Of a stretch of DNA of 32,941 nucleotides, positions 405 to 7,650 are shown in pieces. This DNA is from Sulfitobacter sp. (GTDB lineage Bacteria; Pseudomonadota; Alphaproteobacteria; Rhodobacterales; Rhodobacteraceae): positions 1 to 32,941 of the forward strand of contig JAGXHE010000074.1 of the NCBI GenBank assembly GCA_024636445.1, given 5' to 3'. Position 1 is the stretch's first letter. Each line of letters starts with the position of its first letter. The translations under genes were made by a program, and so were the position numbers. Under the pieces are notes generated by a model. It was not told where the DNA came from, searched no databases, and saw nothing but the letters and a program-made list of their open reading frames with translations.

Positions 405-2678
405 CTACTCGTATTGCGTGACCGGCGTGCCCGCGATGGCCGACATGTTCAGCAATCCGCGCGCAGTGATCGAGGGGCTGACGATGTGTGCGCGGTTGCC
501 CATGCCCATCAGGATTGGCCCGACCTCAAGCCCGCCGCCCTTCATCTTGAGAATATTGCGCACGCCGGATGCTGCATCGGCGTTGGCAAAGACCAGCCCG
601 TTGGCTGCACCCTTCATCCGCCCGCCGGGCAACAGCCGGTCGCGCAGTTCGGGGTCAAGTGCCGCATCGAGGTTCATCTCGCCTTCGTAGCAGAAATCAC
701 GCGGCTTGGAGTCGAGGATATCCAGAGCGGCCCGCATGTGCACGCCCGACCCGCTGCTTTGGCTGCCGAACTGCGATTGCGAACACAGCGCGATGCGCGG
801 CTCGATGCCAAAGCGGCGCATGTGGCGCGCGGCACCGATCACGATCTGCGCGATGTCCTGCGGCGTCGGCACCATATGGACATGCGGGTCGGAGATGAAC
901 AGCGGCCCGTCTTCGAGGATCATCAGTGACAGGGCTCCGACGGGTTGCAGTTGCTTGGTGCCCAGAACCTGCTGGATATAGTTCATGTGCCATTTGAATT
1001 CGCCGAAGGTGCCGCAGATCAGGCTGTCGGCTTCGCCACGGTGCACCATGACGGCACCAATCGCCGTGGTGTTTGTGCGCATGATGGCGCGCGCGAGGTC
1101 GGGGGTGACGCCCTGACGGGCCATGATCTCGTGGTAGGTGCCCCAGTAATCGCGGTAGCGCGGATCGTTTTCGGGGTTCACCAGATCGACGTGTTCGCCC
1201 AGCTTGATGGTCATGCCTGCGCGGGCGATCCGTGCCTCGATGACTTCGGGGCGACCGATCAGGATCGGGCGTTCGGTGGTTTCCTCTACCATCGCCTGTG
1301 CTGCACGCAGCACGCGCTCGTCCTCGCCTTCGGCAAAGACGATGCGGCGCGCCACCGTGCGGGCGGCGTCGAAGACGGGGCGCATCAGCAAGGCGGATTT
1401 GAAAACCGAGCCGTCCAGCTTGGTCTTGTAGGCCTCAAGATCCTCGATCGGTCGCAGCGCCACACCACTGTCCATCGCCGCTTTGGCAACGGCGCTGGAC
1501 ACGATGCCGACAAGGCGCGGGTCGAAGGGTTTGGGGATCAGATAATCCGGGCCGAATGTCATCTGTTCGCCCTGATAGGCCGCCGCCGCTTCGGCGCTGG
1601 TGGTCGCGCGGGCAAGGGCTGCAATGCCGTCGATGCAGGCCAGCTGCATTTCGTCGTTGATGGTGGTCGCACCCACATCCAGCGCCCCGCGAAAGATGAA
1701 CGGAAAGCACAGCACGTTGTTGACCTGATTGGGAAAGTCGCTGCGCCCCGTGGCGATGATCGCGTCGGGGGCGATCTCGCGGGCCAGATCGGGCAGGATT
1801 TCCGGCGTCGGGTTGGCCAGCGCGAAGATGATCGGGCGTTTCGTCATGCGGGCGACGTGATCTTGGGTCATCACGCCGGGACCGGACAGTCCCAGAAACA
1901 GATCGGCCCCGTCCATCACGTCGTCCAGCGTGCGCAGATCGGTCTTTTGTGCATAGGCGGCCTTGGCGGGGTTCATATCCTCGGTGCGCCCCTCGTAGAC
2001 CAGTCCGTGAATGTCGCACAGCCAGATGTTCGCGCGCTTGACCCCCAGCTTCAGCAGCATGTTCAGGCAGGCGATGCCGGCCGCACCGCCCCCCGTCGAG
2101 ACGATCTTGATGTCTTCGAAGGATTTTCCCGCCACATAAAGCGCATTGGTCGCCGCAGCGCCCACGACGATGGCGGTGCCGTGCTGGTCGTCGTGAAAGA
2201 CCGGGATGTTCATCCGCTCGCGGCAGATCCGCTCGACGGTAAAGCAATCGGGGGCCTTGATGTCCTCAAGGTTGATCGCACCGAAGGTGGGCTCGAGTGC
2301 ACAGACGATAGCGGCCAGCTTTTCGGGGTCGGTCTCGTTCACTTCGATGTCGAAACAGTCGATGCCTGCGAATTTCTTGAACAGGACCGCCTTGCCCTCC
2401 ATCACCGGTTTCGAGGCCAGCGCACCGATGTTGCCCAGACCCAGAACGGCGGTGCCGTTGGTGACCACGGCCACCAGATTTCCGCGTGCCGTATAGCGTG
2501 CGGCGGTGGTGGGGTCTGCCTTGATCTCAAGACAGGCCTCGGCGACGCCGGGCGAATAGGCGCGGCTGAGATCGCGACCGTTGGCCAGAGGCTTGGTCGC
2601 ACGGATTTCCAGTTTCCCCGGTTTGGGGAATTCGTGATAATCAAGTGCGGCCTGACGCAACGAGGGGGTATCGGTCAT
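405..2678 (-). CDS. maeB: NADP-type malic enzyme with C-terminal phosphotransacetylase-like domain
   Basis: It decarboxylates malate to pyruvate with reduction of NAD(P), linking the TCA cycle to pyruvate and NADPH supply in the cytoplasm. The 757 residues split into a malic enzyme half (about 1-430) and a phosphotransacetylase-like half (about 435-757). Visible motifs are [60 protein letters not shown] and the Rossmann loop [10 protein letters not shown]. The second half starts near [17 protein letters not shown]. The length is typical of the chimeric MaeB/Dme/Tme family. In rhizobial members the C-terminal domain is known to lack transacetylase activity and to mediate acetyl-CoA control; that this applies here is inference. 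GGAG lies upstream of the chosen ATG. The gene is divergent from the VOC/cupin gene across the repeat array, with prpE downstream. Confidence 0.95.
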
Positions 2679-2982: not shown

Positions 2983-4074
2983 ATGGGCGACACGCTGGCA
3001 GAAGTAATATTGCCGACGCAGGATTTGCGCGGCGATATCGGGTTTTTCACCAAGCGGCTGGGGATGCGGATGGACATGATCTATCCTGCGGACGATCCGG
3101 CTGTGGCGGTGTTTTCTGGGCACGGGTTGGCAGTGCGGTTGGATGCCGGGCTGGACGCGCCTGCGGGGCGGGTTCTGATCCGGTGCGAGGAGCCTGCGGA
3201 ATTTGCCGATGGGGTGCTGGAGTTGACGGCACCCGGTGGGACGCAGGTGACGGTCGAGGCGTTGCAGCAGCCCGTCGTGATGCCCGAGACGGTGCATTCG
3301 TTCGTGGTGCGGCGGCTGAAGGATCAGGCCCCATGGGTGATCGGGCGCGCGGGCATGCATTACCGCGATCTTATTCCCGACCGTCTGGGCGGGTCGATCA
3401 TCGCCAGCCACATCCGTATTCCCGATGGCGGCCCGGTGCCTGATATGGTGCATTACCACACGGTCGGGTTTCAGCTGATCTTTTGTTATCGCGGCTGGGT
3501 CGATCTGGTCTACGAGGATCAGGGCGAGCCGTTCCGTTTGCATGCGGGCAACTGCGTGATCCAGCCGCCTGAAATTCGCCACCGTGTGCTGTTTGCCAGC
3601 GACAATATAGAGGTGATCGAGATCGGCGTACCGGCCGAGCATGTGACCACCATTGATCACGATATGGAACTGCCCAACGGTCCTGCCAATCCGGCCCGTG
3701 TGTTTCAGGGCCAGCGGTTCGTGCATCACAAGGCTCAGGAGGCGACCTGGCAGCCGTTTCGCATCGGCGGCTTTCAGTCGCGCGACACCACGATTGCGGC
3801 GCATACCGACAATGTGGCGGGTGTGCATGTGGTGCGGCGTGGAACGGGCGTTCCGGAATGGGCATCGCATGACAGCGACATCCTGTTCACCTTCGTGATG
3901 GACGGCACGATGGTACTGCAGGGCGAAGGCCGCGATCCATATGCCCTTGAGGCAGGCGACGCTTTTGTCGTCCCACCGGGGATGAAGGTGCGCTATGGCG
4001 ATCCTTCGGATGATCTGGAACTGCTTGAAGTGTCCTTGCCCGGTGCGTTCACCACACAATCAGGAGAAAGTTGA
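2983..4074 (+). CDS. VOC/glyoxalase-like plus double-cupin protein, function unknown
   Basis: The 363-residue protein begins with a VOC-like half (residues about 1-75: a VILPTQDLRGDIGFFTKRLG strand-helix pattern), followed by two cupin barrels. Cupin 1 (about 120-215) keeps metal-type histidines: H157-Y-H159 and a later PPEIRHRV. Cupin 2 (about 260-355) has GDAFVVPPGMKVRYGD but lacks the matching histidine set, so it probably binds no metal. The ATG at 2983 is chosen because GGAGGG precedes it. The open frame extends upstream to 2758, but only through the tandem repeat. The stop codon shares one base with the cdd start (TGATG), so it is the first gene of a coupled nucleoside-salvage chain. 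A role as sugar/nucleoside isomerase, dioxygenase or binding protein is possible, but the sequence does not decide. Confidence 0.8.
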   Translation: MGDTLAEVILPTQDLRGDIGFFTKRLGMRMDMIYPADDPAVAVFSGHGLAVRLDAGLDAPAGRVLIRCEEPAEFADGVLELTAPGGTQVTVEALQQPVVMPETVHSFVVRRLKDQAPWVIGRAGMHYRDLIPDRLGGSIIASHIRIPDGGPVPDMVHYHTVGFQLIFCYRGWVDLVYEDQGEPFRLHAGNCVIQPPEIRHRVLFASDNIEVIEIGVPAEHVTTIDHDMELPNGPANPARVFQGQRFVHHKAQEATWQPFRIGGFQSRDTTIAAHTDNVAGVHVVRRGTGVPEWASHDSDILFTFVMDGTMVLQGEGRDPYALEAGDAFVVPPGMKVRYGDPSDDLELLEVSLPGAFTTQSGES

Positions 4075-4460
4075 TGAATTTGAAAGAAGCAGCGACCGCC
4101 GTGCGCGAGAAAGCCTATGCGCCCTATTCACAGTTCAAGGTGGGGGCTGCGATCACCGGTGCGTCTGGCACCGTCTATTCCGGCTGCAACGTCGAGAATG
4201 TCGCCTATCCCGAGGGCACATGCGCCGAAGCCGGGGCCATTGCCGCGATGGTGGCCGCGGGCGAGACGAAGCTGACCGAGGTCTTTGTGATCGCGGGCAG
4301 CCCGATGCCGGTGACGCCTTGTGGTGGCTGCCGTCAGAAGCTGGCCGAGTTCGGTGCAGGCGATGTCCGCGTGACGATGGCGACCACGGGCGGGGCGGAA
4401 CAGGTGATGACGCTGGCTGAACTGCTACCCGGTGCCTTTACGCCTGATCACATGAAATGA
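4074..4460 (+). CDS. cdd: Cytidine deaminase
   Basis: It deaminates cytidine and deoxycytidine to uridine and deoxyuridine in pyrimidine salvage. The 128 residues are the normal size of the small, homotetrameric, zinc-dependent type. The zinc and catalytic residues are visible: C50-A-E52 (in GTCAEAGAI) and C83-G-G-C86 (in TPCGGCRQK). The substrate loop CNVENVAYPEGTC is also present. AGGAGA (4062-4067) serves the ATG at 4074, which overlaps the upstream stop by one base. The gene ends in an ATGA overlap with deoA, so the deaminase and phosphorylase steps are translationally coupled. Confidence 0.96.
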   Translation: MNLKEAATAVREKAYAPYSQFKVGAAITGASGTVYSGCNVENVAYPEGTCAEAGAIAAMVAAGETKLTEVFVIAGSPMPVTPCGGCRQKLAEFGAGDVRVTMATTGGAEQVMTLAELLPGAFTPDHMK

Positions 4461-5773
4461 GCGACTTTTCGGCCCGCGATATTATTGCTGGCTTGCGTGC
4501 GGGCGAGATGCCGTCGCGCGATGCCTTGGCGTGGTTCGCCCAAGGGCTGGCCGATGGTGCGGTCAGCGACGCGCAGGCGGGGGCCTTTGCGATGGCGGTC
4601 TGCCTGAACGGCTTGGGCGATGAGGGCCGCGTGGCGCTGACGCTGGGCATGCGGGACAGCGGGCAGGTGCTGGGCTGGGATCTGGACGGCCCGGTGCTGG
4701 ACAAGCATTCGACGGGGGGCGTGGGCGATTGCGTGTCGCTGGTGCTTGCCCCTGCGCTGGCGGTCTGCGGGGCTTACGTTCCGATGATCTCGGGTCGCGG
4801 CCTGGGGCATACCGGTGGCACGCTGGACAAGCTTGAGGCGATACCGGGGCTCAACGTCGATCTGGACGCGGCGCAATTTCATGACGTGGTTGCCGGCACC
4901 GGCTGCGCTATCGTCAGTGCCACGGCCCACATCGCCCCCGCGGACAAGCGGCTTTATGCGATCCGCGATGTGACGGCGACGGTGGAAAGTCTGGACCTGA
5001 TCACCGCGTCGATCCTGTCGAAAAAGCTGGCGGGTGGGCTCGAGGGGCTGGTGCTGGACGTCAAGGTCGGCTCGGGTGCGTTCATGAAGGATATGGACGC
5101 GGCGCGGGCCCTGGCCGAGGCGCTGACCGGCACCGCGAATGCCGCCGGATGCCGGACCTCGGCGCTGATCACGGATATGAACCAGCCGCTGGCCCCGTCG
5201 CTGGGCAATGCGCTGGAGGTGGCGCAGGTGATGCGTGTGTTGACCGAAGGGGATACCGATGCGCCGCTGTCGCAGATCAGTGCGGCGCTGGGCGGGGTGC
5301 TGTTGGCGGGGGCCGGGCTGGCTGCGGACGCGGAAACAGGGGCGGTGATGATCGCGAAGGCCATCCAGAGCGGGGCGGCAGCCGAGCGGTTCGGCAAGAT
5401 GATCGCGGCGATGGGTGGGCCGGTGCATTTCGTCGAGAACCACGCGCGTTTTCTGCCCGAGGCGACGGTGATCCGCGAAGTCGCAGCCAAAGATGCAGGC
5501 GTGGTGCAGGCCATTGACGGCGAAGCCTTGGGGCGCATCGTGGTGGCATTGGGCGGCGGGCGCGCGGTGGAAAGCGATGTGGTCGATCCGGCCGTCGGGC
5601 TGTCTGGTGTGCTGCGGCTGGGCGACAGCGTGGCCAAGGGCCAACCGCTGGCGGTGATCCACGCCTCGCACCCCGATCAGGCGGACCGCGCCGAGGCCTC
5701 TGTGCGGTCGGCGTTCACCTTGGGCGCGCGGGCGGTAAAAGCCCCCCCTCTGATCCACGCGCAGGTGTCGTGA
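4457..5773 (+). CDS. deoA: Thymidine phosphorylase
   Basis: It splits thymidine or deoxyuridine with phosphate to the free base and deoxyribose-1-phosphate. The 438 residues match the family length. Visible motifs are the phosphate-binding KHSTGGVGD (83-91) and the family signature SGRGLGHTGGTLDKLE (112-127), followed by ILSKKLAGGLEGLVLDVKVG around residues 177-200. The ATG overlaps the cdd stop by four bases. The gene ends in a one-base overlap with deoB. Cytidine deaminase supplies its deoxyuridine, and deoB takes the deoxyribose-1-phosphate it releases. Confidence 0.96.
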   Translation: MSDFSARDIIAGLRAGEMPSRDALAWFAQGLADGAVSDAQAGAFAMAVCLNGLGDEGRVALTLGMRDSGQVLGWDLDGPVLDKHSTGGVGDCVSLVLAPALAVCGAYVPMISGRGLGHTGGTLDKLEAIPGLNVDLDAAQFHDVVAGTGCAIVSATAHIAPADKRLYAIRDVTATVESLDLITASILSKKLAGGLEGLVLDVKVGSGAFMKDMDAARALAEALTGTANAAGCRTSALITDMNQPLAPSLGNALEVAQVMRVLTEGDTDAPLSQISAALGGVLLAGAGLAADAETGAVMIAKAIQSGAAAERFGKMIAAMGGPVHFVENHARFLPEATVIREVAAKDAGVVQAIDGEALGRIVVALGGGRAVESDVVDPAVGLSGVLRLGDSVAKGQPLAVIHASHPDQADRAEASVRSAFTLGARAVKAPPLIHAQVS

Positions 5774-6951
5774 TGGCGCGGGCGTTTCTGGTGGTCATCG
5801 ACAGCGTCGGCATTGGCGGTGCACCCGATGCCGATACGTTTTTCAATGGTGCCCTGCCCGATACGGGGGCCAACACACTGGGCCATATCATCGACGCCTG
5901 TGCTGCGGGACAGGCCGAAGACAGGCGATCCGGCCCCTTGCAGGTGCCGCATATGATGGCGCTGGGGCTGGGGGCTGCGGTCACACTGGCCAGCGGGCAG
6001 GCGGTTGATACGCCCGAACCTGCCGGCACCTGGGGGGCCGCCACCGAAGTGTCGCGTGGCAAGGATACGCCGTCGGGCCATTGGGAACTGGCCGGGCTGC
6101 CGGTGCCGTGGGAGTGGCATTACTTCCCCGACGAAACCCCCGCCTTTCCCGACAATGTGGTGGCGGCGGTCTGCAAGGCGGCGGGCACGTCCGGTATCTT
6201 GGGCAATTGCCACGCTTCGGGCACCACGGTGATTGCCGATCTGGGGGCCGCGCATCTGCGCACTGGCTGGCCGATTTGCTATACCAGTGCCGACAGCGTG
6301 TTCCAGATCGCGGCACACGAGGAACATTTCGGGCTGGAACGCTTGCTGCGGCTTTGCGCCGATGTCGCGCCGCTCTTGCACCAGATGAAAGTGGGGCGGG
6401 TGATCGCGCGGCCTTTCGTGGGGGATGCGGGATACTTCCGGCGCACTGGCAACCGCAAGGACTTTGCCATCCTGCCCCCCGCCCCGATGCTGACCAACCA
6501 CGTGCAGGATGCAGGGCGCGCAGTTTACGCCGTGGGCAAGATCGGCGACATCTTTTCGATGCAAGGCATCGACGAGGTGCGCAAAGGCGATGACCATACT
6601 CTGATGCGGCACTTGGGCGATCTGGTGCGCGAGGCGCAGGATGGTTCGCTGACCTTTGCCAACCTCGTCGAGTTCGACAGCCTTTATGGTCACCGCCGCG
6701 ATGTGTCGGGCTATGCGCGCCATCTGGAGTGGTTCGACGCCGAACTGGGCAAGCTGCTGCCACAGCTCCGTGAGGGCGATATGCTGGTCGTCACCGCCGA
6801 TCACGGCAATGATCCCACATGGACCGGCACCGATCACACCCGCGAACGGGTTCCGGTGATTGTCGCGGGCATCGGCGCTGGAAAGTTGGGCCAGATCGCC
6901 TTTACCGATGTGGCGGCGCTGGTCCTGCGCCACCTCGGTATCACCGTTTAG
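5773..6951 (+). CDS. deoB: Phosphopentomutase
   Basis: It converts (deoxy)ribose-1-phosphate to the 5-phosphate, feeding nucleoside-derived sugar into central metabolism. The protein is 392 residues, in the alkaline-phosphatase superfamily. Metal-site motifs visible are FLVVIDSVGIGGAPDAD near the N-terminus, KDTPSGHWELAG around residue 98, and ADHGNDPTWTGTDHTRE near residue 340. The ATG at 5773 shares one base with the deoA stop; an in-frame GTG three bases earlier is a possible alternative start. No deoC aldolase, the usual next step, is present in this window. Confidence 0.96.
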   Translation: MARAFLVVIDSVGIGGAPDADTFFNGALPDTGANTLGHIIDACAAGQAEDRRSGPLQVPHMMALGLGAAVTLASGQAVDTPEPAGTWGAATEVSRGKDTPSGHWELAGLPVPWEWHYFPDETPAFPDNVVAAVCKAAGTSGILGNCHASGTTVIADLGAAHLRTGWPICYTSADSVFQIAAHEEHFGLERLLRLCADVAPLLHQMKVGRVIARPFVGDAGYFRRTGNRKDFAILPPAPMLTNHVQDAGRAVYAVGKIGDIFSMQGIDEVRKGDDHTLMRHLGDLVREAQDGSLTFANLVEFDSLYGHRRDVSGYARHLEWFDAELGKLLPQLREGDMLVVTADHGNDPTWTGTDHTRERVPVIVAGIGAGKLGQIAFTDVAALVLRHLGITV

Positions 6952-7017
6952 GCAGGTCGCAGGTTGTCTAAGCGCGCCCCGCTTGGCACATAGGGGCAGT
7001 CAAATTTGGAGAGCGCC

Positions 7018-7650
7018 ATGAGCGAGCATGTCACCGTTGTCGATCATCCCCTTGTACAGCACAAGCTGACCATCATGCGCGACCGCGACACGCCGACGGC
7101 TGTGTTCCGGCAATTGCTACGCGAAATCAGCCAGTTGCTTGCCTACGAGGTGACGCGCGGCCTGCCGATGACGACCAAGCGGATCGACACGCCGATGCAG
7201 CCGATGGATGCGCCGACTCTGGATGGCAAAAAGCTGGCACTGATCTCGATTCTGCGGGCGGGCAACGGGTTGCTCGACGGCGTGCTGGAACTGATCCCTT
7301 CGGCGCGGGTCGGATTTGTCGGTCTGTACCGGGACGAAAAGACGCTGAAACCGGTGCAATACTACTTCAAGGTGCCCGAAGGGCTGGACGACCGTCTGGT
7401 GATCGCGGTCGATCCGATGCTGGCCACCGGCAATTCTTCGGTGGCTGCGGTCGATCTGCTGAAACAGGCAGGGGCCACCAACATCCGGTTCCTGTGCCTG
7501 CTCGCCGCTCCCGAAGGCATCGCCACCATGCGTGCCGCACACCCCGACGTGCCGATCGTGACAGCGGCCATTGACGAAAAACTGAACGAACACGGCTATA
7601 TCGTTCCGGGGCTGGGTGATGCGGGAGACCGCATGTTCGGCACAAAATAG
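7018..7650 (+). CDS. upp: Uracil phosphoribosyltransferase
   Basis: It makes UMP from uracil and PRPP and so recovers the base released by DeoA. The 210 residues are the family length. The PRPP loop [11 protein letters not shown] lies at 131-141, with the uracil-binding segment near the C-terminus ([19 protein letters not shown]). The ATG at 7018 is preceded by GGAGAG; a TTG twelve bases upstream is open but less likely. A 66-base gap separates it from deoB. A weak TTGTCT element in the gap could be a promoter, but read-through from the deo chain is as likely. Confidence 0.95.

Follow-up and report, generated by a model that had tools for sequence, protein, structure and literature searches.

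A VOC-bicupin protein with an invariant predicted metal site is encoded beside nucleoside-salvage genes in Sulfitobacter and recurs beside kynureninase-type genes

The DNA analysed here (the window) is a 32,941-nucleotide (nt) stretch of a Sulfitobacter sp. (contig JAGXHE010000074.1, assembly GCA_024636445.1), and coordinates refer to the whole of it. It carries a gene for a protein that joins a VOC module to a double cupin (bicupin) and for which the working label CUP is used. Downstream, on the same strand, follow cdd, deoA, deoB and upp, while the divergent upstream neighbour is a gene that, from its sequence, we take to be a maeB-like malic enzyme (Table 1). As claimed in a preliminary description of the locus, the CUP stop and the cdd start share one base, the deoA start overlaps the end of cdd by 4 bases, and the deoB ATG shares one base (5773) with the deoA stop. 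Gene starts were chosen among alternatives, as in-frame codons also lie upstream of CUP (TTG 2758), cdd (TTG 4071) and deoB (GTG 5770); for CUP, ATG 2983 was taken, and the matches of its relatives begin at residue 1 of this reading. The interval between the malic-enzyme-like gene and CUP contains a 30-bp unit repeated in 4.7 copies with 96% match (2761-2902). Scans for sigma-70 promoters (no sites, 0.9 expected) and terminator-like sites (five, 3.1 expected) were uninformative. No second CUP match was detected in the window genome at E values up to 0.01.

Table 1. Features of the CUP locus and of two related loci
Feature	Position	Strand	Remarks
CUP	2983..4074	+	ATG 2983, TGA 4072-4074; 363 amino acids
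VOC module of CUP	2983..3276	+	residues 1-98; one beta-alpha-beta-beta-beta unit
Near-invariant segment before cupin 1, W118..GRAGMxYRDLxPxRxGGxxIASH143	3334..3411	+	R122, Y127, R128, D129, R134 and H143 fixed in 158/158
N-terminal cupin, predicted metal site	3400..3648	+	residues 140-222
H157-x-H159, predicted metal ligands	3451..3459	+	fixed in 158/158
Q164, at the usual cupin Glu place	3472..3474	+	fixed in 158/158
H200, predicted third His ligand	3580..3582	+	fixed in 158/158
C-terminal cupin, degenerate metal site	3715..4050	+	residues 245-356; H296 kept
TGATG, CUP stop overlapping cdd start	4072..4076	+	the cdd ATG opens with the A at 4074
cdd, cytidine deaminase	4074..4460	+	NCBIfam NF004064, 146.3 bits (cut-off 74)
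deoA, thymidine phosphorylase	4457..5773	+	NF004490, 565.9 bits (cut-off 269); ATG 4457
deoB, phosphopentomutase	5773..6951	+	NF003766, 478 bits (cut-off 256)
upp, uracil phosphoribosyltransferase	7018..7650	+	NF001097, 294.2 bits (cut-off 114); 66 nt past deoB
Malic-enzyme-like gene (maeB-like)	405..2678	-	divergent neighbour of CUP
Kynureninase-like PLP enzyme fused to KynB-family cyclase	L219 1964-3955; L240 1952-3961		just upstream of CUP, downstream of the M20 peptidase gene

The fusion of a VOC module to two cupins, also proposed in the preliminary description, was borne out. Two stretches of CUP matched Pfam Cupin_2 (58.4 bits against a cut-off of 27.2), which assigns the protein to the cupin superfamily. 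No Pfam match was obtained in about the first 100 residues of the window protein; the same N-terminal stretch passed the Pfam Glyoxalase cut-off in three of nine other members. The top Foldseek matches of a model of residues 1-104 (predicted local distance difference test score, pLDDT, 92.6) were FosA, FosB, glyoxalase and bleomycin-resistance structures, and by this model and the Pfam matches of the relatives the N-terminal module has a VOC fold. When VOC ligand positions were matched by eye, E7 was present in 148 of 158 aligned sequences and position 90 was E in 128 of the 158 and T in the window. The model of the whole protein (pLDDT 82, with residues 99-105 and 115-137 below 50) fits bicupins, but bicupins of many functions scored alike, so the fold selects no enzyme class. 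The family model of cupin-type (R)-mandelonitrile lyase (NF049940) gave 21.4 bits, in the C-terminal cupin, against a cut-off of 140, and neither hydroxynitrile lyase nor KdgF was among the 50 fold matches listed, which excludes nothing. In Rhodobacteraceae, single-domain cupins of 132-144 amino acids, whose identity is 42-46% with cupin 1 of CUP and 35-36% with cupin 2, are encoded in L159, L160, L161, L164 and L165 (L numbers denote loci, G numbers genomes) next to genes that we presume, from their sequences, to encode an acyl-CoA carboxylase and a mutase; the CUP bicupin may derive from duplication of such a cupin.

Residue conservation was followed in an alignment of 158 sequences, including the L153 protein and the Paraburkholderia copies described below. 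Besides the predicted ligands and the fixed residues of the segment preceding them (Table 1), Q194 and E213 are invariant, and the fixed set spans different genomic contexts, since it is found both in L153 at 32% identity and in Paraburkholderia copies at 46-48% identity that lie beside a class-V pyridoxal-phosphate (PLP) enzyme. The preliminary description had held that one cupin keeps metal histidines and the other has lost them. The first part was confirmed for H157 and H159 and extended to Q164 and H200; the second is correct for most ligands of the C-terminal cupin (the place of its second His was aligned by eye), but H296 was kept in 157 of the 158 sequences.

The neighbourhood of CUP was then surveyed in the Rhodobacteraceae with one genome per genus. 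Among 394 genomes searched, 155 matched and 146 carried a full or nearly full CUP; the nine left out had single-cupin matches only, and three of those kept are partial (G009, G022 and G381). Eight short loci were replaced by longer stretches for the neighbourhood count. Genes outside the window were called by our own codon-score script, which missed CUP in L066, L181, L210 and L287 and all genes in L153. In 107 of the 146 loci cdd was the next gene on the same strand within 1 kb, and it lay slightly farther away in two more; hence a chance arrangement peculiar to this strain was rejected. The malic-enzyme gene was oriented divergently at 104 of these 107 loci. Eight further loci showed CUP with the malic-enzyme gene and no cdd or deoA, and in the remaining 29 CUP was located elsewhere. 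In three genomes with CUP no deoA match reached E 1e-80, and one of these genomes (L278) has the order maeB-CUP-upp with neither cdd nor deoA in a 10.9-kb stretch.

The base sharing seen in the window was not typical of these loci. CUP overlapped cdd in 27 of the 107, and the genes were 0-20 nt apart in 11, 21-60 nt in six and more than 60 nt in 63, although these lengths depend on the starts chosen by the script and a few long gaps (e.g., 598 nt) may reflect miscalled cdd starts. In contrast, a spacing within 20 nt was kept by cdd-deoA in 106 of 106 and by deoA-deoB in 78 of 79 measured cases, compared with 38 of 107 for CUP-cdd. Tight coupling of CUP to cdd is thus a local trait: the core genes stay coupled, while CUP drifts.

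The nucleoside operon was also inspected in 20 genomes lacking CUP, hand-picked from those with listed deoA places, a list ordered best match first. Genes cdd, deoA and deoB occurred in a row in all 20, although deoC or a purine-phosphorylase-like gene separated cdd from deoA in some. In 11 of these loci maeB faced cdd directly with no called gene between them, and in one more a 61-amino-acid open reading frame intervened. A gene for 318-347 amino acids, presumably an adenosine deaminase judging by its sequence, was found between deoB and upp in 16 of the 20, and none occupies this interval (6951-7018) in the window. Besides deoB, the window genome has a deoC above the cut-off, next to a long open reading frame that we take to be an aldehyde dehydrogenase. 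With deoB and deoC both in place, deoxyribose use has no obvious missing step.

Outside the family, a survey of the class (385 genomes, 19 full or nearly full copies) yielded 14 CUP relatives, and cdd or deoA was near only one of them. In L153 a relative with 32-34% identity stands last in a row of two ABC-permease-like genes, cdd, punA, deoC, an aldehyde-dehydrogenase-like gene and deoA, which ends 8 nt before CUP. As the cdd-punA-deoC-deoA operon that this distant relative closes is a separate one, the link to nucleosides probably originated twice. A kynureninase or KynB-family cyclase gene was on the same strand within about 1.4 kb of CUP in six of the 14 relatives, and in L144 a kynureninase gene was 6.6 kb away on the opposite strand. 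In L152 a kynureninase above the cut-off precedes CUP. On two Paraburkholderia plasmids CUP follows genes for an M20 peptidase, an MFS transporter and a class-V PLP enzyme. The same M20-PLP gene pair stands ahead of CUP in L219 and L240, and there a KynB-family cyclase domain is joined to the PLP enzyme (by similarity in L240); this PLP enzyme is kynureninase-like, but scores of 58 and 71 bits leave it far under the kynureninase cut-off of 246.

Such genes also occur next to CUP within the Rhodobacteraceae. The gene of a kynureninase-like PLP enzyme was next to CUP, or within about 1.4 kb of it on the same strand, in four of the 39 family loci without cdd as the next gene, and in five chosen loci (L033, L037, L049, L065 and L075) a kynureninase-type gene was placed likewise. 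In L075 and L196 the PLP-enzyme gene overlaps CUP by 4 bases, and the kynureninase that follows CUP in L049 and L065 is 70-72% identical to that of the window genome. CUP orthologues at 73% identity and with the same site residues adjoin kynureninase or a kynureninase-like PLP enzyme, as do more distant ones. An AMP nucleosidase gene, in one case profile-tested, was found two to four called genes from CUP in five loci, and in L140 (G724) the full-length CUP is followed, some 1.3 kb on, by a further CUP-like copy that is partial.

When 398 genomes of the phylum were searched with a profile, 13 matched at E 1e-45, all in the same family or class; the Paraburkholderia copies, of which this search showed none, were found by a plasmid search. 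Four annotated plasmid records name the product only "cupin domain-containing protein". A phage-borne gene was rejected, as none of 50,697 phage records matched. None of the titles and abstract openings listed by literature searches names this protein, and the word "cupin" is absent from the main text of PMC9007349.

A FastTree phylogeny of 157 CUP proteins was left unrooted, and no direction of change was deduced from it. The cdd-linked copies were in one group of 132 rows (support 82), adjacent to a group of 15 rows (support 99) whose 14 labelled members all lacked the cdd link, and the cdd label changed at least 16 times on the tree. The kynureninase-linked proteins of L037, L065, L075 and L281 clustered inside the cdd-linked part, and that of L196 paired with a cdd-linked row; consequently, each of the two settings includes close orthologues that share their site residues. 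Co-occurrence was scored at E 1e-50 for kynU and E 1e-80 for deoA, with non-matching genomes partly deduced from numbering gaps. Both genes were more frequent in CUP genomes: deoA in 143 of 146 compared with 223 of the 248 other genomes (Fisher p 0.002) and kynU in 137 of 146 against 183 of 248 (p 2e-7), neither value being corrected for kinship or completeness. All that these counts show is that CUP is not tied to nucleosides alone.

Considering these results, we concluded that pyrimidine salvage probably does not include CUP among its core steps. The preliminary description had taken the coupling as normally a sign of common pathway use, but the loose CUP-cdd spacing, the operons without CUP, the presence of deoB and deoC, the genomes with CUP and without deoA and the kynureninase-type neighbours all speak against reading it as a salvage step. 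The inference from coupling is weak because the core genes keep it and CUP does not, and because the operon exists without CUP; a common pathway is poorly supported by a TGATG junction seen in a single strain. Two outcomes that would have told against the original idea were considered in the same description. CUP does not lie beside cdd only in this strain, given the family loci and the nucleoside operon of L153, while orthologues mainly beside unrelated pathways were indeed found outside the family, but not inside it. Since close relatives adjoin genes of tryptophan-type breakdown, a helper enzyme is a likelier role for CUP than that of a missing salvage step.

As a tentative proposal, which we favour with limited confidence, CUP would be an accessory metalloenzyme whose chemistry is probably non-redox and which serves several catabolic operons, those that yield nitrogen-ring products. 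The N-terminal cupin probably binds one divalent metal via His157, His159, Gln164 and His200, and the Tyr127-Arg128-Asp129/Arg134 segment may provide acid-base and anion-binding groups, while the C-terminal cupin would be a degenerate structural half and the VOC module might serve to close the site or to dimerise it. The metal would most likely act as a Lewis acid, as in KdgF, in non-redox ring opening, hydrolysis or tautomerisation. The proposed target is a small, reactive nitrogen-containing product, which could arise from nucleoside phosphorolysis in the window and from kynureninase-type cleavage elsewhere. We infer metal binding, non-redox chemistry and one common activity; a single function across contexts is suggested by the identity of the residues. 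A more specific version, itself doubtful, is that the VOC-bicupin family with its unchanged site (GRAGMxYRDL...HxHxxxxQ...H) might perform one undescribed non-redox step in nucleoside and kynureninase-type catabolism, e.g., one that opens, hydrolyses or tautomerises a reactive product with a nitrogen ring. The family may even provide the formamidase step, as the window genome has a kynureninase and no KynB match up to E 10, although none of 14 control genomes passed the KynB cut-off either, which makes this a weak test. More than a third of the family genera sampled (146 of 394) have this enzyme-like invariant site, to which no reaction is assigned, and its substrate, once known, would explain a gene annotated merely by its cupin domain.

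Several observations weigh against the accessory metalloenzyme. The support of the tree is modest. A kynureninase-type match was absent from the stretch examined in 35 of the 39 family loci without cdd next to CUP, and the kynA-kynU operon of the window genome itself (L157, contig C162) has neither CUP nor any cupin. This operon includes salicylyl-CoA hydroxylase-like, acyl-CoA ligase, ABC transporter and RidA-like genes, most of these names being our assumption from sequence. Other contexts of CUP, namely efflux genes with MarR/GntR regulators, XRE-cupin regulators and TRAP and PfkB genes, are left unexplained. Three-His cupins can activate O2, and the nearest folds of the CUP model include dioxygenases. 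Finally, the analogy with KdgF is soft: a text passage of PMC11381880 names three His and one Gln, and a legend of the same paper prints Glu56.

The most serious rivals are a passenger from kynureninase catabolism and a ring-cleaving dioxygenase. According to the first, which we consider rather unlikely, CUP has no functional tie to nucleosides; it would have entered the maeB-cdd gap in an ancestor of the Rhodobacteraceae and been kept there by positional inertia, with its real role in kynureninase-type catabolism. The nearly constant divergent maeB, the eight loci, L278 among them, that keep CUP and maeB without cdd or deoA, the CUP-less loci in which maeB faces cdd, the wide CUP-cdd gaps and the excess of kynU in CUP genomes are all in keeping with such an origin. 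The separate operon of L153, however, argues against mere inertia, and deoA is enriched with CUP too.

It is unlikely that CUP is instead an Fe(II) bicupin dioxygenase of the quercetinase or salicylate/gentisate 1,2-dioxygenase kind, cleaving an aminoaromatic or heteroaromatic ring. The top structural matches do point in this direction, with quercetin dioxygenase at Z 21.3 (240 residues, root-mean-square deviation 3.2) followed by salicylate dioxygenase and the gentisate dioxygenase of Silicibacter pomeroyi (both Z 19.1), and SDR and dienelactone hydrolase genes come after CUP in L290. But oxalate decarboxylase (Z 19.4) and seed storage bicupins scored about equally (Z 18-19.4), no dioxygenase family was among the Pfam or NCBIfam matches listed at E values up to 1, and Gln164 is invariant. 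Bicupin ring-cleaving dioxygenases need not have Gln at this place.

Quite unlikely is a pyrimidine base or modified nucleoside as the substrate within the cdd-linked clade alone, with other substrates for the homologues elsewhere. Most cdd-linked sequences do fall into one group with a sister group lacking the link, and residues 160-162 mostly differ, being mostly TVG in the family and K/R, I/V/A, R in relatives outside it. Yet the kynureninase-linked proteins of L065, L075 and L281, with the same site residues, stand inside the cdd-linked part.

The least probable is a substrate suggested in the preliminary description, deoxyribose phosphate, or deoxyribose itself, which CUP would act on by KdgF-like ring opening or anomerisation: the position in the deoA-deoB operon, the separate deoA operon of L153 and a set of three His and one Gln as in the KdgF text passage agree with it, but it was rejected as first choice, given that the genome already has deoB and deoC and that relatives without CUP retain the same operon, and the kynureninase-type neighbours, which suggest no sugar step, and the three genomes without a deoA match also oppose it.

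The accessory metalloenzyme proposed here can be compared with several known systems. CUP recurs beside kynureninase-type clusters (kynU, KynB-family cyclase), and the kynA-kynU operon of the window genome differs from them in being without CUP. The bicupin dioxygenases (quercetinase YxaG and the salicylate/gentisate enzymes) share the bicupin fold with CUP at Z 19-21 over 240-251 residues; they differ in that identity in the structural alignments is 12-16% and CUP has an invariant Gln164, with no dioxygenase family among its listed profile matches. (S)-ureidoglycine aminohydrolase (TIGR03214, YlbA/AllE) is likewise a bicupin, and the YlbA structure matched the model at Z 18.6, although the TIGR03214 scores of CUP in the window (12.7 bits) and of its L153 relative (30.7 bits) are under the cut-off of 200. 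KdgF opens a sugar ring non-oxidatively and, by a text passage of PMC11381880, holds its metal with three His and one Gln, resembling the H157/H159/Q164/H200 set predicted for CUP from sequence; the likeness is one of ligand description, and KdgF is a single-domain protein without a VOC module that has a catalytic Asp and Arg in its barrel and acts on unsaturated uronates. The hypothetical protein of PDB 2o8q_A has one cupin in 134 amino acids, with neither a VOC module nor a second cupin, but it matched cupin 1 of CUP (residues 124-225) with 69 bits and has the YRD, HTHTVGFQ, GW, YED and QPPxxRH motifs in common with it.

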